From the NCBI RefSeq assembly GCF_003351045.1, contig NZ_QQZY01000009.1:1-64000 (forward strand): a DNA stretch of 64,000 nt, read 5' to 3'. The position numbers and the translations under genes were made by a program. This DNA comes from Gaiella occulta (GTDB lineage: Bacteria; Actinomycetota; Thermoleophilia; Gaiellales; Gaiellaceae). Position 1 is the stretch's first letter. Every line of letters starts with the position of its first letter. The notes beneath the pieces were generated by a model. That model was not told where the DNA came from and did not search any database. It saw only the letters and a list, made by a program, of their open reading frames with translations. This document shows positions 28,182 through 44,708 of this stretch, in pieces.

Positions 28182-28918
28182 GCACGCATGCGTCCGCGAC
28201 GGCGGCGCCCGTGCTCGAGCTGCGCGACGTGCACACGTACTACGGCGCGATTCACGCGCTGAAGGGCGTCTCGCTGCGGGTCGGCCAGGGCGAGATCGTG
28301 ACGCTGATCGGGGCGAACGGCGCCGGCAAGTCGACGACGCTGCGCTCGATCAACGGGCTCAACAGGCCGCGGCAGGGCACGATCGCCTTCCACGGCAAGG
28401 ACATCACGAGCGCGAGCCCCCACGAGATCGTCAAGGGCGGTATCGCCCAGAGTCCCGAGGGCCGCCGCCTGTTCCCGCGCATGACCGTCACGGAGAACCT
28501 CGAGATGGGAGCCTTCCAGCGCTCGGACCGCGAGAATTTCAAGGAGGACATGGAGCGCGTGTTCGAGCTGTTCCCGCGCCTCCACGAGCGGCGCAGCCAG
28601 AAGGCCGGGACGCTGTCGGGCGGTGAGCAGCAGATGTGCGCGATCGGCCGCGCCCTGATGGCCCGCCCGAAGCTGCTCTTGCTCGACGAGCCGTCGATGG
28701 GACTCGCTCCGATCTTCGTGGAGAAGATCTTCGAGATCGTGGTCGAGATCAACGAGCAGGGCACGTCCGTGCTCCTCGTCGAGCAGAACGCGCTGATGGC
28801 GCTCGACGTCGCACACCGCGGCTACGTGATGGAGACGGGCGTGATCGCGCTCGAGGGCAGCGGCGTGGAGTTGAAGTCGAACGAGCGCGTGCAGAAGGCC
28901 TATCTCGGCATCGACTGA
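28178..28918 (+). CDS. livF: Branched-chain amino acid ABC transporter ATPase LivF
   Basis: A 246-residue ABC ATPase. Walker A is GANGAGKST, the Q-loop GIAQSPEGRRLFPRMTVTENL is diagnostic of LivF, the signature is TLSGGEQQMCAIGRAL, and Walker B is LLLLDEPSMGLAP. The ATG overlaps the livG stop (ATGA). Its last codons overlap the 3' end of the convergent LarA-like gene by 19 bases, so the two transcripts are antisense there. Confidence 0.95.
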   Translation: MSTHASATAAPVLELRDVHTYYGAIHALKGVSLRVGQGEIVTLIGANGAGKSTTLRSINGLNRPRQGTIAFHGKDITSASPHEIVKGGIAQSPEGRRLFPRMTVTENLEMGAFQRSDRENFKEDMERVFELFPRLHERRSQKAGTLSGGEQQMCAIGRALMARPKLLLLDEPSMGLAPIFVEKIFEIVVEINEQGTSVLLVEQNALMALDVAHRGYVMETGVIALEGSGVELKSNERVQKAYLGID

Positions 28919-30435
28919 CGCTCGCCGTCGGCGAGGGCTGCGGCGAGCAGCGGCGCATAGGGCGGGGCGAGCAGCACCCCGACGCGGTGGTCGCCGCCGG
29001 CGACGCCGCGCGCCATCTGCAGCGCCGTCGTCGCGTTGTGGCTCGGCACGAGGCCGAGCGCGCGGGCGGCGGCGGCGTCCCGGCAGCCGGCGGCGATCAC
29101 CCGGCCCGCGCGCGCGAGCGCCGGCGCGCACGTCTCCCAGTCCGCGTAGGGCAGGAGCGGGTGCGGGGCGCGGCCGCCGCGATACGCCGACAGACCGCGG
29201 TGATCGCGTGCGGCGGCGGCTTCGAGCCCGGCGATGCGCTCCGGATCCCGGTTCTCGCGCAGCTCGTTGAACAGGGCGCGGTGGGGTGCCTGTGGGCCGC
29301 TTTCGAACGTCCGCGCGAAGTCGTGCAGGAGCACGATCGTGCCTCCCTCGGCGAGCGGGGGCGCGTCGCGCCACAGCCTCAGCGCCAGGCCGAGGCCGAC
29401 GGCCGCCGCCGTGATCGGGTTGAGCGGCTCGCGCGGCTGCCGCGGCCCCTTCCACGGGAGCGGCACGACGAGCGTGTCGAGCGGCTCGGGTAGCGGCGTT
29501 CCCCGTACCGCGACTCCGCGCAGGAGCGCCTCGGCGTGCGCGACGGACGGGGGCCCGGCAAGCGCGCTGACGGCGCCGATCTGGCGCGAGAGCCCCTGCA
29601 GGAGGTGCCGGCGGACGCCTCCGGGCAGCGCGTTGAGAAGAAGCCGGGCGGGAGAGAGCCGCAGCGCGTGGAGCGTGGGAAGTGACCACGGGTAGCCGCG
29701 GTAGCGCCCCGTCAGCCGTGGATGGTCGAGCACGAGGGAGACGCCGACGACGGGGGTGTGCTGCGCGAGCGCGGACTCGACGGCGGCGCCCAGGCGGCTC
29801 GCGGGCGAGGCGGAGGGCTGCAGCAGTGAAGGCGAGGGCCGCGCTGCACGGACGACGTCCGCCGAGCAGGCGGCGAGGAGCGTGCAGGCGCCGCCGCGAT
29901 CGGTTGTCTCCGCCGCCGTCACGGTGACGACGAGGTCGGTGTCGACGAGCGCGGGGTGGACGCGGAGCTCGCCGGCGCCCGTCGCGCCCAGTGAGCGCAG
30001 CTCGTCGCCGGCGCAGTCGTGGACGACGACCGTTCCCCGGTAGGCGCGCGCGCGGGCCGGGTGGAGAAGGCGCTCGAGATCCCGGCGTCCGGCGCGGCGC
30101 TCCAGGCCGCCCGCCACGAGAAGCGTGTGCCGTGCGCGGGGCATGCCGAGGCGGTCGAGCTCGTCGATGACCGCCGCGAGCGCATCCTGACGAGGGTCGG
30201 CGGCCGCGCCGGGAAGCGGGAGAGTGGGCAGCTCGACGACGATCGTGGCGCGGCCGCCGCGCGTGACGAGGTCGGCGAGCGGAGGGCCGGAGAGCGGGTA
30301 GCGCAGCGCCTCGGCGACGGCGTCGCCGACGTCGGCGAGCGCGCCGAGCGGAGGAGGGGGCGCGAGCAGATGCGCACCGTCGTCGACGGCGACGAGCTGC
30401 ACGCGTGAGCCGGTGAGCAGCGGGATCTTCCGCAT
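28900..30435 (-). CDS. LarA-like (DUF2088, nickel-dependent lactate racemase family) protein
   Basis: A 511-residue protein with a LarA-type N-terminal domain: ATIVVELPTLPLPG, then DALAAVIDELDRLGMPRARHTLLVAGGLERRAG, VVVHDCAGDELRSLG and VDTDLVVTVTAAETTDRGGACTLLAACSAD. The C-terminal half is more divergent. The SDxTR-type motif and GFSGG motif of characterised lactate racemase are replaced, so racemase activity is doubtful; related proteins act on other hydroxy acids. The start at 30435 is a choice between this ATG and a GTG at 30456. No LarB/C/E maturation genes are in view. It is divergent from polA. Confidence 0.6.
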   Translation of the reverse strand: MRKIPLLTGSRVQLVAVDDGAHLLAPPPPLGALADVGDAVAEALRYPLSGPPLADLVTRGGRATIVVELPTLPLPGAAADPRQDALAAVIDELDRLGMPRARHTLLVAGGLERRAGRRDLERLLHPARARAYRGTVVVHDCAGDELRSLGATGAGELRVHPALVDTDLVVTVTAAETTDRGGACTLLAACSADVVRAARPSPSLLQPSASPASRLGAAVESALAQHTPVVGVSLVLDHPRLTGRYRGYPWSLPTLHALRLSPARLLLNALPGGVRRHLLQGLSRQIGAVSALAGPPSVAHAEALLRGVAVRGTPLPEPLDTLVVPLPWKGPRQPREPLNPITAAAVGLGLALRLWRDAPPLAEGGTIVLLHDFARTFESGPQAPHRALFNELRENRDPERIAGLEAAAARDHRGLSAYRGGRAPHPLLPYADWETCAPALARAGRVIAAGCRDAAAARALGLVPSHNATTALQMARGVAGGDHRVGVLLAPPYAPLLAAALADGERQSMPR

Positions 30436-30514
30436 GCCGCCATCCAAGCAGCGCACGGCCGGGCGCGCCGGGCGCCCCTTGCCGTCCCGCTGCGTCGTGC
30501 GCCTTGCGCGCGCA

Positions 30515-35196: not shown

Positions 35197-35741
35197 GGCG
35201 CCTGCTCGTCGTCGCCGCCGTCACGGCCGCCCTCGGCGGCATGGCGCTCGTCGCTCTGCGCTCCGAGCCGGAGCTCATACAGCGGCTCCGCTACCCGCTG
35301 CGCTACGAGCAGATCGTGCGCACCCATTCGCGCAACTACGACCTCGACCCGTCGCTGCTCGCCGCCGTCATCTACACGGAGAGCAAGTTCGACGCGGGCG
35401 CGACGTCGGGGGCCGGCGCGATCGGCCTCATGCAGCTGCTTCCCGGCACCGCGCAGGGCATCGCGCTCCGCACCGGCGGCAAGCACTTCACGGTCGAGGA
35501 TCTCTACGTCCCGGAGATCAACGTGCGCTACGGCTCGTGGTACCTGCGCACCCTGCTGAGGCGCTACGGCGACGAGCGCACGGCCCTTGCCGCCTACCAC
35601 GCGGGCCAGGGGAACGTCGACCGCTGGCGCCGCCGCGGGCTCGACATCCAGTTCCCCGAGACCAGGGACTATGTCGCCAAGGTCGAGCGCGTCAAGAAGG
35701 TGTACGCGTCCGCCTACGCCGCCGAGCTGGGGGTGCGATAG
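35193..35741 (+). CDS. Membrane-anchored lytic transglycosylase (SLT domain)
   Basis: A 182-residue exported lysozyme-like protein. An N-terminal hydrophobic anchor (LLVVAAVTAALGGMALVAL) is followed by an SLT domain: LLAAVIYTESKFDAGATSGAGAIGLMQLLPGTA with catalytic Glu in YTES, then YGSWYLRTLLRRYGDERTALAAYHAGQGNV. It should cleave glycan strands of peptidoglycan. The GTG at 35193 overlaps the coaE stop. The short length means one catalytic domain with no added wall-binding repeats. Confidence 0.93.
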   Translation: MRRLLVVAAVTAALGGMALVALRSEPELIQRLRYPLRYEQIVRTHSRNYDLDPSLLAAVIYTESKFDAGATSGAGAIGLMQLLPGTAQGIALRTGGKHFTVEDLYVPEINVRYGSWYLRTLLRRYGDERTALAAYHAGQGNVDRWRRRGLDIQFPETRDYVAKVERVKKVYASAYAAELGVR

Positions 35742-35895: not shown

Positions 35896-37551
35896 TCAGG
35901 CAGGTGCCCGCGGCGCGTCCTCGAGCATGTGGCGCCAGAGGTTGTCGAGCATCCGCCTGACCGGCCAGAAGGTCGCCGAGCCGCCGAAGTCGAGCGCTCC
36001 CGCGGAGAACACGCGCGCCCCGGCCGCCGTCTCGTAGTAGGTCATCTCGGCATTCAGCCCCGGCCCGAACAGGCTCGGGATCAGGGCCAGCACCTTCGTG
36101 CCGGGCGGCGAGTCGGGCGTCGTCATGTCGATCTCGATGCCGTAGCCGCCGACCGTATCGCCGAGCGTCGACCCGTTGGCGAGGCCGGTGCCCTCGAACA
36201 GCCAGGGGGCCGCCTCCGCCGCGACGACGGAGAACGGCCCCTGCTTGCCGCCGCCGTCGTTGGCGCGGTACTGCACGCCGCACAGCCGTGCCTCGGGCCG
36301 GCCGAGATCGCGCCAGAGCTTCACCCGGCGCATGAGGTCGCCCTGCTTCTCGACCTTCCAGAAGAAGTTGTTCGCCGACAGGAAGATCAGCCGGCCGCCG
36401 AGATCGCGGAAGCGCTCGACGACGTCGTATGCGTGCTCGCTGACGTACTCGCTGTGACCGGGGAAGACGACGAGGTCGTAGAGGCGCCGCAGGTCGTCGC
36501 CGGACGCGAACGCCTCGAGGTCGTCGTCGGCGAGCATGTCCGGCCTGCGATCCGTCCACTGCAGCCACTTCAGGTAGCCGAGGTCGTAGCGCTTGTAGCG
36601 CGGCGGCACGCCCCGGTCGCGGTAGGGGCGCGTGAGGTCGACCGCGGGGCTGCCGCCTGCGTACCACGTGTCGCCCCAGCCGTCCCCGTCTCGGTCGTAG
36701 AGGTTGTAGGCCTGCCACGTGTTCGTGGGCAGGACGACCGCCTCGCGGGTCGCGCCGAGCGTCTTCGGGCGCAGGACGAACGGCGCGAAGCCGACGCGGC
36801 CGTCGTCGGCCTGCAGCCGGGCGGCGTAGAGCCCGCTCGCCCAGCCCTCGCCGCCCTGGACCGTGATCGTCACCGGGCCCGAGCGCTTGCCCGCCCAGTC
36901 GAGGCGGGCGGGATCTCCCATCGGGACGCCCGTCATCTCGTCGCCGCGATCGGTGCTCACCGCCTCCGCGCCGCAGTGCAGGAACGTGAGCATCAGCGCG
37001 GGAGCGTCGGCGAAGATCGTCAGCGCCATCGGCTCGCCGGGGCTGTACGAGCGCCGTGCGAACGCGGCCTCGACGCCCAGCACGCGCACGACCGGCGCGC
37101 GTTGCCGGTCGGCCGACAGCGGGCGCCGCCCGCCGAGCACCTTCCGTGCGCGTCCGGACTCCTCGATCGTGAGGCGCATCACGTACGAGCCGACCGGCGT
37201 TCCCGCAGTCGGCGTCCACGTCAGCCGGTGTGCGCCGGCGCCGAGGACGGCCTCCTGCTGCCAGGCCACGGCGCTCGAGCGCAGCGCCGTCCGCACCGCC
37301 TCGAGCCGGACGGTGGCGCGTCTGCGCAGCCGGAACGCGACGGCGACGGTGCCGCCTCCCTCGCTGCCCGGCGCGACCGTGGCGAACAGCTCACGGTCGC
37401 CGGCGTAGCGCCGGCCCAGGTTGCGGACCGAGAGCCGCTGCAGGGACGGGGCCAGCGCGCGGGCGCCGAGCGCCGCGCGCGGCGCGAGCGCGACGCCCAC
37501 GAGCGCGGCTGCGACGCCGCCGAGCAGGCCGCGGCGGGTCGTGGCAGGCAC
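35896..37551 (-). CDS. Exported N,N-dimethylformamidase large-subunit-like protein (copy 1, Tat-type signal)
   Basis: A 551-residue protein. Its N-terminus TTRRGLLGGVAAALVGVAL looks like a twin-arginine signal. Two beta-sandwich-like segments (about 40-250) are followed by the domain that resembles the DMFase large-subunit C-terminus (about 265-545): LPTNTWQAYN, DGDGWGDTWY, GHSEYVSEHAYDVV, SANNFFWKVE, GVQYRAND and MTYYETAAGARVFSAGALDFGG. In the known enzyme an iron site uses Tyr, Tyr and Glu, and Tyr of NTWQAYN and Glu of HSEY are plausible equivalents (inference). The substrate is unknown. GTG start 37551 follows TACAGT (37563-37558, minus strand) by 6 bases. A close paralog lies directly upstream. 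Confidence 0.72.
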   Translation of the reverse strand: MPATTRRGLLGGVAAALVGVALAPRAALGARALAPSLQRLSVRNLGRRYAGDRELFATVAPGSEGGGTVAVAFRLRRRATVRLEAVRTALRSSAVAWQQEAVLGAGAHRLTWTPTAGTPVGSYVMRLTIEESGRARKVLGGRRPLSADRQRAPVVRVLGVEAAFARRSYSPGEPMALTIFADAPALMLTFLHCGAEAVSTDRGDEMTGVPMGDPARLDWAGKRSGPVTITVQGGEGWASGLYAARLQADDGRVGFAPFVLRPKTLGATREAVVLPTNTWQAYNLYDRDGDGWGDTWYAGGSPAVDLTRPYRDRGVPPRYKRYDLGYLKWLQWTDRRPDMLADDDLEAFASGDDLRRLYDLVVFPGHSEYVSEHAYDVVERFRDLGGRLIFLSANNFFWKVEKQGDLMRRVKLWRDLGRPEARLCGVQYRANDGGGKQGPFSVVAAEAAPWLFEGTGLANGSTLGDTVGGYGIEIDMTTPDSPPGTKVLALIPSLFGPGLNAEMTYYETAAGARVFSAGALDFGGSATFWPVRRMLDNLWRHMLEDAPRAPA

Positions 37552-37579
37552 GGGGGAACTGTATCCCGGACGCAGGGGC

Positions 37580-39469
37580 CTACGGGGCGCTGAGCCTGTT
37601 CCAGAGGTTGTCGAGCATGCGCGAGACCGACGGCAGCAGCGCCGTTCCGCCGAAGTCGATCGTGCCGGCGGCGAACACTCTTGCTCCCGCCGGCGTCTCG
37701 TAGTAGGTCATCTGCGCGGTGAAGCCGGGGCCGTAGAGATCCCGGATCTCGGCCAGGACGATCGTGCCGGGCGGGCTGGCCGCTGTCGTCGCGTCGATCT
37801 CGATCCCGTAGCCGCCGAGCTCCTCTCCGAAGGTGGAACCCGTCGCCAGGCCCGTGCCCTGGAACAGCCACGGCGCAGCCTCGGCGCCGCGGACGACGTA
37901 CGGCCGCTGCATCCTGCCGTCGTCGTTGGCGCGGTACTGGACGCCGATCAGCGCCGACTCGGGGCGGCCGAGGTCACGCCACCTGCGAACGCGCCGCAGC
38001 ACGCCCCCGGAGCGTCGCACCTGCCAGAAGAAGTTGTTCGCCGACAGGAACATGAGGTTGCCGCCGAGATCGCGGTAGCGCTGCACGACGTCGACCTCCT
38101 TCGGCGTCACGTACTCGGTGTGGCCGCCGAAGACGACGAGGTCGTAGAGGCGGGCGAGCGTGTCGCCGCTGTCGAGCACCTCGAGATCCGTCTCGGTCAG
38201 GTAGTCGGGCTGCTTGCCGCGCTGGGCGAGCCAGCGCAGGAAGCCGAGGTCGTATTTGCGGTACTGAGGCGGCACGCCGCGGCGCAGGAACGCGCGGCCG
38301 AGGCGGACGGTGCTCTGCGCTCCCTTCGCATACCACGTGTCGCCCCAGCCGTTGCCGTCCTCGTCGCGGAAGTTGTACGCCTGCCACGTGTTGGTCGGGA
38401 TGACCACCGCGACGCGCGTCGACCCGAGCTGGGCGGGGCGGACGACGAAGGGCGCGAAGCCGATGCGACCATCGGGCGCCGTCAGCCTGGCGAAGTAGAC
38501 GCCCGACGCCCACGGCCCGATCGGGACGGGCAGGGTCGTCGGGCCGTCGAGGCTCGACCACGGCAGGGTCACCGGGTCGCCGAGCGGGACGCCGTTCATG
38601 AACGTGTCGTCGTAGGTCGGCACGTCCTCGGGCCCGGCGCGGAAGAGCTGGAGGTCGAGCGAGGGCGCGTCGGTCTCGACGCGCAGCATCGCCGTCTCTC
38701 CGGGCGCGTAGCTCTCGCGCGTGAAGCCGGCGTCGACGCCGAGCACGCGCACGACGGGCGATGCCGGCCGCCGTCCGGTCTCGGCGTTCGTGGCACCGTA
38801 GGCGCGCCGGTTGCCTGCCTCGTCGACCACGTCGAGCAGCACGAGGTACGTCCTCGGCGGCGTGCCCGGCGGCGGGAACCAGGTGAACGCGTGCCGGCCG
38901 GGCCCGAGCGTGGCCGTCTTCTCGTACACGGTCGTGGGCGAGCTGAGCGTGCGCGTGACGCGGAAGCGCACCGTTGCGCGCTCGCCGAGCGTGAAGCCCA
39001 CCTTGGCGGCGTCGCGCAGGCGGTCGCCGTTCGGCGAGATCGTGGTGAGGAGCGCGCCGTCTCCGTGGAACGGGCGTGCCGAGCGCGTGTACGCGCGCAG
39101 GCGGCGGAGCTGCGGCGCAACCGTGTCGACCCGCAGCGGCCGGGCGGCGAGCACGCGCCCCGTGCCGGGCTCGACGACCTCGATCTCGTAGCGCCCGTCG
39201 CCGAGGCGGGAGCCGTTCAGCCTCCCGTGCCAGCGCAGCGAGAGGAAGCGGCGGGGCTGCGGCGCCGCGAGCCACCCGAGTGGTCGTCCGCGCTGGACGA
39301 GTCGCACGCCGACGCGCAGCGGCCGCTCGAGCGTCACCTCGACCCGGACGCTTCGGGCCCCCCGCGGCGAGAAGGCCTCCTTCGAGAGCGAGAGCGTATC
39401 TGCGCCGGCGGCGGCGGGCGCCGCCGGGAGCAGCGCGACGGCGAGGAGGAGAAGGAGGAGACGGCCCAT
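37580..39469 (-). CDS. Exported N,N-dimethylformamidase large-subunit-like protein (copy 2, Sec-type signal)
   Basis: A 629-residue paralog of the neighbouring 551-residue protein. The signal is Sec-like (GRLLLLLLAVALLPAAPAAAGA) rather than twin-arginine. An additional FlgD-Ig-like segment (ISPNGDRLRDAAKVGFTLGE, about 140-220) precedes the shared region. The catalytic-like domain repeats every landmark: IPTNTWQAYN, DEDGNGWGDTWY, GGHTEYVTPKEVDVV, SANNFFWQVR, GVQYRANDDG and MTYYETPAGARVFAAGTIDFGG. The ATG at 39469 lies 9 bases after TACGAT (39484-39479, minus strand). No DMFase small-subunit gene is next to it. Confidence 0.72.
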   Translation of the reverse strand: MGRLLLLLLAVALLPAAPAAAGADTLSLSKEAFSPRGARSVRVEVTLERPLRVGVRLVQRGRPLGWLAAPQPRRFLSLRWHGRLNGSRLGDGRYEIEVVEPGTGRVLAARPLRVDTVAPQLRRLRAYTRSARPFHGDGALLTTISPNGDRLRDAAKVGFTLGERATVRFRVTRTLSSPTTVYEKTATLGPGRHAFTWFPPPGTPPRTYLVLLDVVDEAGNRRAYGATNAETGRRPASPVVRVLGVDAGFTRESYAPGETAMLRVETDAPSLDLQLFRAGPEDVPTYDDTFMNGVPLGDPVTLPWSSLDGPTTLPVPIGPWASGVYFARLTAPDGRIGFAPFVVRPAQLGSTRVAVVIPTNTWQAYNFRDEDGNGWGDTWYAKGAQSTVRLGRAFLRRGVPPQYRKYDLGFLRWLAQRGKQPDYLTETDLEVLDSGDTLARLYDLVVFGGHTEYVTPKEVDVVQRYRDLGGNLMFLSANNFFWQVRRSGGVLRRVRRWRDLGRPESALIGVQYRANDDGRMQRPYVVRGAEAAPWLFQGTGLATGSTFGEELGGYGIEIDATTAASPPGTIVLAEIRDLYGPGFTAQMTYYETPAGARVFAAGTIDFGGTALLPSVSRMLDNLWNRLSAP

Positions 39470-39478
39470 CAGCGCGGC

Positions 39479-39509
39479 ATCGTAGACGCCGCGCCGGGGC
39501 GGCTAGGCT
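39479..39509. promoter_or_regulatory. Divergent -10 boxes, DMFase-like copy 2 and uvrB
   Basis: Minus-strand TACGAT (39484-39479) precedes the ATG at 39469 by 9 bases. Plus-strand TAGGCT (39504-39509) precedes the GTG at 39516 by 6. No LexA-type CGAAC-N4-GTTCG site is present here. Confidence 0.5.
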
Positions 39510-39515
39510 TCGTCG

Positions 39516-41519
<2,004 letters not shown>

Positions 41520-42335: not shown

Positions 42336-43829
42336 CTACCGGCTCGCGCCTGCCCCGTACTTCTCCCGCAGGTAGCGCAGGTACGGCTCCGGGTCGAGCG
42401 GCCCGCCCACCACGCGCTCGAGCGTCTCCTTCGGGGTCAGCTTGCGGCCGAGCGCGTAGAGGTTCTCCCGCAGCCAGGCGCCGAGGGCCGAGAAGTCGCC
42501 CTGCTCGAACTGCTCCTCGAGGCCCGGGAGCGCGGCGCGCGCCGCCTCCCAGATCTGCACGCTCATCACGTTGCCGAGCTGGTAGGTCGGGAAGTAGCCG
42601 AATGCGCCGCCCGACCAGTGCACGTCCTGCAGCACCCCGAGGCGATCCTCCGGGACGGCGAGCCCCAGGTACTCCTCGAAGCGGGCGTTCCACGCCTCCG
42701 GCAGATCGGCGCTCGAGAGCGTGCCCGCGAGCAGCTCCTGCTCGAGCTCGAAGCGGAGGATGATGTGCATGCCGTAGGTGACCTCGTCGGCGTCGACACG
42801 GATGAACGACGGGCTCACGCGGTTGACGGCGCGGTAGCAGGCCTCGAGCGGCATGTCGCCGAGCACCCCCGGGAAGGCGGCCTGCAGGCGCGGGTGGAAC
42901 CAGCGCCAGAACGGCAGCGAGCGCCCAACGACGTTCTCCCACAGCCGGCTCTGCGACTCGTGCAGGCCCGACGAGCAGCCGGACGCGAGCGGCGTGCGCT
43001 CGAGCTCCGGGCTGATGCCGCGCTCGTAGAGGCCGTGCCCGATCTCGTGCAGGCAGGTGAACAGCGACTCGAGGTCGCCCTCGTCGTAGCGGGCCGTGAC
43101 CCGGATGTCGCTGATCGCGAAGCTCGTGCAGAACGGGTGCACGCTCGAGTCGAGCCGGAACGAGGACGGCTCGAATCCGAGCGCGGTCATGGCCTCGAGC
43201 CCCAGCGCGCGCTGTGCCTCCACGGGGTACGGCCCCGGCGGCAGAGGGTCGACGGCGCTGTCCCGCAGCGCCGCGATGAGAGGGACGAGCTCCTCCTTGA
43301 GGCGGTCGAAGACGGCGCGCACCTCGGCCGTGGTCGTGCCCGGCTCGAAATCGTCGAGCAGGATGTCGTACGGGTCCGCCGCCGGCTCGAAGCACTCGAC
43401 GTACGCGTGCTTCAACGCGAGGTGGCGGTCGAGCCAGGGCCGGAACGCCGCGTAGTCGCCGGCGGCACGCGCCGCGGCCCATGCCTCCATGCCCTCCGAG
43501 GACGCCTTCGCCATCTCCGCCGCGAGGTCGGCGGGGACGCGGCGCGCCTTCTCCCAGTCCGTGCGCGTGACGCGGACGAGGCAGGCGTCGTCGGCGTCGT
43601 GGGGGAGCGACTGCTCGAGCGGGCGCAGCTCCTCGAGCAGCTCGCCGATGCGGCCGTCGACGAAGCGCTCGTGTGCGACGCGCTGCAACGTCGCCAGCCG
43701 CTCGGCGCGGACGGCGGCCCCCGCCGGCGGCATCAGCACCATCTGATCCCAGTCGAGCACGGCGGCAGCCGAGCGGAGGTCGTCCACCTCTGCCAGCCGC
43801 CGCTTCAGCTCGGCGAGCTTCGCGTCCAC
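42336..43829 (-). CDS. M32-family metallocarboxypeptidase (Taq-type)
   Basis: A 497-residue zinc carboxypeptidase of family M32. The zinc-binding HExxH is H261-E-I-G-H265 ([11 protein letters not shown]), with the further ligand Glu in [12 protein letters not shown] about 30 residues on. Other family blocks are [40 protein letters not shown] and the C-terminal [11 protein letters not shown]. It should trim C-terminal residues from cytoplasmic peptides. The GTG start at 43829 has AGGAGGAG 6 bases upstream. Confidence 0.94.
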
Positions 43830-43907: not shown

Positions 43908-44708
43908 TCAGCCGCGGGGGAACGTCCGCGTCGCGGTCCGCACGAAGGCGCCGCCGTCCCAGACATGCGTCTCGACCGCGAGCTCGCGTGCCGTCCAGCG
44001 GACGACGTGCAGGCCCTGCGCCTCGCCCGTCCGCCGCGGGCGTGGCCGACCGAGTCCCGGCGCCGTCGCGAGCACGACCGACCTGCCGCGAGGGGCGTCC
44101 ACCGCCTCGAACTCGTGGCGCTCGACGACCGAGCTCTGGTGGATGTGCCCGCCCACGATCAGCTCCGCGCCGCTCGCGGCGAGCGCGGAGAGCGCCGCGT
44201 CGCGGCGCTTCAGCGGGAGCTTGCGCGCGGCGCGCCACGGCGCCCCGGCGAGGTGGTGGTGCAGCACGACGACCCGCAGCGCGCCGGCGTCCGCGGCGGC
44301 GAACGCCTCCGCGGCCCTGCCGGGCCCGTCGCCTGGCAGGCGGCCTCCCTGGTGCCGCCACGGGCGCACCGAGTTGAGCCCGCAGGCGACGATTCCCGGC
44401 GCCGTGACGACGGGCTGCACGCTCCCGAACACCTCCTCGAACGCGCGCCACGGGCGCGTGACGCGGCCGGGCAGCGTGTACGGGATGTCGTGGTTGCCGG
44501 GCACGGCGAGCACCGGTGCCGGCAGGCGGTCGAGCAGCGCCTTCGCACGCCGCAGCTCCTGCACGCGGCCGCGGTTGGAGAGATCGCCGCTCGCGATCGC
44601 GAGCACCGGGGCGAGATCGTGACACAGTGCCACGAGCGCGTCGTCGAGCGCCGACGTCTCGCGGACGCCTCGGTGCAGGTCGGAGAAGTGGATCGCGCAA
44701 CCGGTCAC
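43908..44708 (-). CDS. Calcineurin-like metallophosphoesterase
   Basis: A 266-residue dimetal phosphoesterase. The ordered motifs are FSDLHRG (D-x-H), SGDLSNRG (GD), PGNHDIPY (GNHD), LHHHLAG (H) and GGHIHQSS (GHxH), a complete active site. The substrate (cyclic nucleotide, nucleic acid or other phosphoester) cannot be read. The GTG at 44708 is preceded at 11 bases by TATAGC (44725-44720, minus strand), overlapping the -10 box of the divergent small membrane protein. Confidence 0.9.

Follow-up and report, generated by a model that had tools for sequence, protein, structure and literature searches.

A tandem pair of DMFase-superfamily proteins with predicted export signals and a calcium-type loop at the putative iron site in Gaiella occulta

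Background

For an iron site built from two tyrosines and one glutamate, a mechanism has been published only for N,N-dimethylformamidase (DMFase), an enzyme that requires a second subunit (PMC7686228). The Fe(III) ligands of DMFase, the large subunit of which is known from Paracoccus (PDB 6lvb, 6lvd and 6lve), are Y399, Y440 and E521; activity is lost in the Y440A, E521A, H519A, N547A and E657A mutants, and the two-Tyr ligation has been likened to that of ferric-binding proteins, which are non-enzymes (PMC7686228). A second relative, N-acetyl-(R)-beta-phenylalanine acylase (PDB 8huy, 8i59 and 8i5a), is an enzyme known from PDB titles, and its kinship means that the superfamily is not restricted to N,N-dimethylformamide (DMF). 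Here we describe W1 and W2, two tandem genes of Gaiella occulta whose products belong to the Pfam family DMFA2_C (PF20254). They lie in a window of 64,000 nucleotides (positions 1 to 64,000 of contig NZ_QQZY01000009.1, assembly GCF_003351045.1). In titles and abstract openings of open-licence PMC papers we found no exported DMFase-like proteins. Our analysis suggests that W1 and W2 are probably exported, stand-alone Fe(III) amidohydrolases of the DMFase superfamily, with a substrate probably larger than DMF.

Results

The first gene of the pair, W2 (37580..39469, ATG start, 629 aa), is followed after a gap of 28 bp by W1 (35896..37551, GTG start, 551 aa); both are on the minus strand, as are all features of the pair given below. 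The two proteins share 280 of 513 aligned residues (55%) and score 185.4 (W1) and 204.2 bits (W2) against DMFA2_C, for which the Pfam cut-off is 27 bits, the matched regions being residues 227-525 of W1 (35977..36873) and 312-608 of W2 (37646..38536). No other protein of the 3.03-Mb genome (98% complete) matches PF20254. An earlier, sequence-only reading of the window had described two paralogues of 551 and 629 residues with shared landmarks of the DMFase large subunit; the coordinates, the family scores and the motifs, every one of which was found in both translations, bear this out. Scans of W1 and W2 with NCBIfam gave no useful match, and PADLOC, a scan for defence systems, gave none.

AlphaFold models built from 31-row alignments had a mean predicted local distance difference test score (pLDDT) of 88.8 for W2 and 87.9 for W1. 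With VIA-align, residues 243-629 of W2 superposed on DMFase 6lve with Z 36.7 (root-mean-square deviation 2.8 A over 375 residues) and residues 157-547 of W1 with Z 37.0 (2.7 A over 376 residues); the acylase gave Z 36.0 with both models, and the next chains (GH42, ThuA-like and beta-glucosyltransferase) scored far lower, at Z 15-17. Other comparisons gave the same two enzymes: the top nine Foldseek matches of W2 were all DMFase or the acylase, and phmmer of W2 against PDB returned the acylase at E 1.3e-11, the best PDB match by sequence as by Foldseek, and the DMFase large subunit at E 8.9e-8. W1 and W2 are, by sequence and predicted fold, members of the DMFase superfamily. The parts of DMFase matched by the models are domains I and III. 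In front of this core, W1 has one immunoglobulin (Ig)-like module (residues ~34-156, 37084..37452; secondary structure of the model and structure matches) and W2 has two Ig-like beta-sandwich modules (residues ~22-242, 38744..39406; secondary structure of the model and Ig-like domain matches). The refuting outcome named in the sequence-only reading, a predicted structure without the iron-site geometry, did not arise: both models have the DMFase fold, and the site residues were placed in it by alignment.

The register of the site was set by a full-length alignment of L034, a type I homologue, with the DMFase chains. In it, Y399 corresponds to the second Tyr in LSYLAYAN and Y440 to the Tyr in GLSTYDGH, and the Y440A and E521A mutant chains agree with this register. 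The six DMFase residues have equivalents in both proteins. In W2 these are Y365 (38375..38377) and Y380 (38330..38332) for the iron ligands Y399 and Y440, H450-x-E452 (38114..38122) for H519-x-E521 (the essential His and the ligand Glu), N478 (38036..38038) for N547 and E557 (37799..37801) for E657, the proposed base; in W1 they are Y282 (36706..36708), Y297 (36661..36663), H366-x-E368 (36448..36456), N394 (36370..36372) and E473 (36133..36135). The motif list of the sequence-only reading lacked the second iron Tyr, which both proteins have at the end of DTWY; the assignment of this Tyr is secure because relatives without an inserted loop (e.g., L114, GGDSWY) match the spacing of type II proteins (GGRSLY).

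The YYHE set was complete in 67 of 70 related domains (the 70 take in four very divergent rows, L106, L147, L148 and L149), and all six residues were kept in 64 of 69 readable domains, W1 and W2 among them (the fragment L032 was left out of this count and of the tree). The expectation that Tyr/Tyr/Glu iron-site residues are conserved in both proteins was supported and extends to the catalytic His, Asn and Glu. This conservation bears on a different role for the same fold and metal residues, that of an extracytoplasmic ferric-iron binding protein or a structural surface protein and not a hydrolase. Ig-like modules, as seen in both models, are common in surface proteins; there is no consistent enzymatic neighbourhood; and two-Tyr ligation of Fe(III) resembles that of non-enzyme ferric-binding proteins (PMC7686228). 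However, the equivalents of His519, Asn547 and Glu657, which in DMFase are catalytic and not ligands, are among the residues kept in the 64 domains, and we consider a non-hydrolytic role unlikely.

In one homologue, L105 (frame from 1185, + strand), the site residues Y, Y, H and N are replaced by D, N, S and A. Of the 36 columns invariant in alignment A1, L105 keeps 34, and the two changed are both Tyr (chance 1/630); at 90 conserved columns it has 14 differences, which include four of the six site residues (p 0.005; both p-values computed post hoc). The joint loss of Y, Y, H and N suggests that the four positions form one jointly constrained site, and L105 is probably a pseudoenzyme with an otherwise kept core. 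For a reading of W1 and W2 themselves as non-functional remnants there speaks only the loss of several site residues in L105 and, partly, in L129; the frames of W1 and W2 are intact, their sites are full and both copies are conserved across a bacterial family, and we hold decay of the pair to be highly improbable.

A calcium-type loop with the motif D-x-[DN]-x-[DN]-G-x-x-D-[ST]-W-Y sits precisely between the Tyr ligands and spans D286-D294 in W1 (DRDGDGWGD, 36670..36696) and D369-D377 in W2 (DEDGNGWGD, 38339..38365). The form Dx[DN]x[DN]GxxD was strict in 62 of the 70 domains, had S, G or T at position 3 in four, and the insert was absent from the other four. Position 12 of EF-hands is usually Glu; in W1 and W2 position 12 is the second iron-ligand Tyr (Y297 and Y380), and calcium binding is predicted from the pattern. 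With the Dx[DN]xDG calcium loops of PMC3123361 the two proteins share D at position 1, D or N at 3 and 5, G at 6 and D at 9. Such loops are reported to be strongly biased to periplasmic, surface or secreted proteins (PMC3123361), and this extracytoplasmic setting is common to W1 and W2 insofar as their predicted export holds. The loop also separates the pair from the described enzymes: the Tyr-Tyr distance is 15 residues in W1 and W2 with the loop in between, and 41 in DMFase, while the acylase, which at 772-776 aa is longer and lacks the Ig-like extension, has no calcium-type loop at that place.

Compared with the DMFase large subunit, with which they share the domain I and III fold and the six site residues, W1 and W2 add signal peptides and Ig-like modules and lack three parts: i) the pentraxin-like domain II is absent, 387 W2 residues aligning against chain residues 4-756, with no Laminin_G match in W1 or W2; ii) a small subunit was not found in the genome, where the best match to DmfA1 of Paracoccus aminophilus had E 0.37 over 37 aa and the neighbours of the pair are slt and uvrB, in line with the claim that neither protein has a small-subunit partner; and iii) the F693-loop region has 15 residues in W1 and W2 versus 36 in three type I homologues, the position of F693 having been found by counting along the L034-DMFase alignment, and the long loop in DMFase coming from the partner subunit. 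Because these three parts are walls of the tiny DMF pocket, the substrate of W1 and W2 would probably be larger than DMF.

The two proteins differ in their predicted export signals, as the sequence-only reading had it. The W1 N-terminus, MPATTRRGLLGGVAAALVG..., which opens with MPATTRRGLLGG, is of the twin-arginine translocation (Tat) type: it has a [ST]RRx[FLV]L-type motif (TTRRGLLGG) before the hydrophobic stretch within residues ~1-29 (37465..37551), and the genome has two TatC genes. The W2 N-terminus, MGRLLLLLLAVALLPAAPAAAGA, is of the general secretory (Sec) type, opening MGRLLLLLLAV with a hydrophobic core LLLLLLAVALL in residues ~1-22 (39404..39469). Both calls come from the sequence and a hydropathy script. 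Across the family, the script pattern labelled 12 of 69 proteins as Tat, and a check by eye left nine, W1 included: the labels of L095, L102, L105 and L130 were dropped (RR in a Sec-like or distant n-region) and one was added for L110 (MRRAQFLQ). On the tree (71 rows, 59 of them labelled; the remainder being eight named fragments, rows called 'none', two fusion halves and two type II rows) the Tat/non-Tat label changes at least five times, versus a mean of 8.6 changes after shuffling, with one of 300 shuffles as low as five. In the W1 clade, of five readable N-termini the twin Arg is present in W1, L092 and L093 and absent from L090 and L094, two further N-termini being unreadable. As the Tat motif is broken in W1 orthologues and the label changes on the tree, the export route is not fixed; the proposal that the twin-arginine signal of W1 points to a metalloprotein exported in its folded state found little support, and the signal is weak evidence for metal loading in the cytoplasm.

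W1 and W2 are not alone in their predicted export: export-type DMFA2_C proteins are seen in another subfamily too, and homologues on plasmids have already been annotated with the family name. Short type II DMFA2_C proteins of other Actinobacteria (e.g., L037, L075/L179 and L174) resemble W1 and W2 in their export-type N-termini and in TWQAYN or TYQAYN followed by SLY, and HxEYW/Y; in contrast, their Tyr-Tyr spacing is 10 residues without a calcium-type loop, and two type II rows lie outside the W1/W2 clade on the tree. RR motifs before the hydrophobic stretch occur in type II L075/L179 and L174, the last of which also has LAAC, making a Tat lipoprotein possible. The motif script, run on other-subfamily proteins, located no motifs in L084, L177 and L178 and placed them wrongly in L074.

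On the tree W1 and W2 each group with orthologues of other genomes and not with each other, and in one of these genomes (G001, L090) the two orthologues lie side by side; by this phylogeny W1 and W2 are old paralogues. Such a tandem could encode an extracytoplasmic heterodimer in place of the DMFase homodimer, an arrangement consistent with the 28-bp gap in the source genome (G000), the like pair in G001, and an 842-aa frame elsewhere (L024:5120-7576, also L095) in which two exported-type DMFA2_C domains are naturally fused, with YYHE complete in both halves. However, the fusion halves come from different clades, neither of them that of W1 or W2 (in alignment A2 all single-domain rows fell on the first half); the export signals of W1 and W2 differ; and W1 orthologues occur in all seven examined genomes of the genus versus two of seven for W2, a count affected by contig breaks beside W1 in G002 and G003. 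We hold such a heterodimer to be unlikely.

The pair sits between slt, encoding a SLT transglycosylase (35202..35741, plus strand), and uvrB (39516..41519, plus strand), both of which we treat as context outside the system, in an array polA-rpsA-coaE-slt-uvrB. We sought uvrB in 10 genomes without the family and examined seven stretches: the array was intact in six, and the seventh (L159) showed uvrB only. The slt-to-uvrB gap in the six ranged from ~50 bp (L156) to ~1.9 kb. Since the array is intact without the pair and the gap varies in length, the pair sits in a variable slot, and the slt and uvrB neighbours are uninformative on function; a functional link to these housekeeping neighbours was rejected on this ground. 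The same result bears on the idea that the pair serves the maturation of cell wall or glycans, for example as an amidase or deacetylase with peptidoglycan or exopolysaccharide as its exported target, next to the SLT transglycosylase. The transglycosylase gene directly adjoins the pair, some relatives have M23-type neighbours, and the missing loop and subunit suggest an open pocket; but the adjacency to slt carries no weight given the six intact arrays without DMFA2_C, and many relatives are at other addresses, and a wall-maturation role seems quite doubtful.

Elsewhere, homologues lie beside QueA-Tgt-SecD with 3-hydroxyacyl-CoA dehydrogenase, thiolase and aldehyde dehydrogenase genes, or beside BTAD-SIR2 and STAND-WD40 regulators. 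Addresses are common within clades, but no consistent partner gene was found at them, and the survey of neighbourhoods that the sequence-only reading had called for yielded none; some clusters of open reading frames that run antisense across homologues, and look like shadows of them, were ignored. BTAD-SIR2 regulator and STAND-WD40 genes recur near L095, L102, L112, L114, L116, L118, L130, L132 and others, and in the BTAD-SIR2 cluster 12 members are divergent within 600 bp of short exported-type homologues.

PF20254 of any subfamily occurs in 130 of 300 genomes of the class and in 30 of 61 close genomes. The subfamily profile A1 matched 45 of 396 genomes of the phylum at E 1e-10 and exceeded 400 bits in its own family only (G000 and G036); below it came the large genomes of one genus at ~130-145 bits, with no calcium-type loop and, in the stretch inspected, no export signal. 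One PF20254 match (G268:C73:34762-35853) contains one in-frame TAG.

Of 61 starts of family genes, 20 are preceded by TANNNT with a 5-9-nt spacer. Shifted controls gave 0-2 such cases, and 500 shuffles a mean of 1.4 and at most 7; a Shine-Dalgarno-like motif preceded three of the 61 starts. By these counts, leaderless-type promoters are a real feature of the family. A leaderless -10 box had been claimed for each gene of the pair: this stands for W1 (TACAGT, 37558..37563, 6 nt before the GTG), whereas the box of W2 (TACGAT, 39479..39484, 9 nt before the ATG) makes it only near-leaderless.

The window also holds genes for a Lar_N (lactate racemase N-terminal) protein (28900-30456), an M32 carboxypeptidase (42336-43829) and a calcineurin-like phosphoesterase (43908-44708), all on the minus strand.

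Discussion

We favor the reading of W1 and W2 as exported, single-chain amidohydrolases, which we regard as probable. Each chain would run from a signal peptide through Ig-like spacer modules (one in W1, two in W2) to a core of DMFase domains I and III. The core would hold a mononuclear Fe(III) via two Tyr and one Glu, next to the three residues required in DMFase (His, Asn and Glu); with water activated by the Lewis-acid Fe(III), an amide bond would be hydrolysed outside the cytoplasm. Candidate substrates are an N-acyl or N-acetyl compound, a peptide or a glycan. Our analysis establishes the family, the predicted fold, the residues of the site, the export-type N-termini and the lack of a small subunit, whereas iron, catalysis, the class of substrate and export itself are inferences from these.

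Several points weigh against this reading: i) the DMFase large subunit is inactive without its small subunit (PMC7686228), and W1 and W2 have none; ii) part of the site is missing in five of 69 domains; iii) the L105 pattern comes from one sequence, of a draft genome in fragments, with p-values obtained after the fact; iv) signal peptides were called by a home-made hydropathy rule and not by a trained predictor; v) the genes are often in a variable slot, without metabolic partners; and vi) the W2 model is weakest at residues 361-410 (block pLDDT 69-77), the loop region of the W1 model having pLDDT 82-87.

The calcium-type loop that carries a predicted iron ligand is the most interesting point of the two proteins. 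Its position raises the idea of a calcium-gated extracytoplasmic iron enzyme, in which the loop would become ordered, and the Fe(III) site complete, only at the higher extracellular Ca2+ level; the sequence pattern makes this conceivable, and we put it forward only tentatively, as rather unlikely. If true, the enzyme would be inactive in the cytoplasm whatever its export route, which would account for the interchangeable Sec and Tat signals of the family.

On the reading of W1 and W2 as exported amidohydrolases, the clade appears to run the DMFase site extracytoplasmically, with one chain only, a catalytic part of reduced size and a calcium-type loop within the ligand set. If active, the two proteins would provide a minimal soluble model of an unusual iron hydrolase, a first function for widespread proteins named by family alone, and a system for asking whether calcium switches on an iron site after export.

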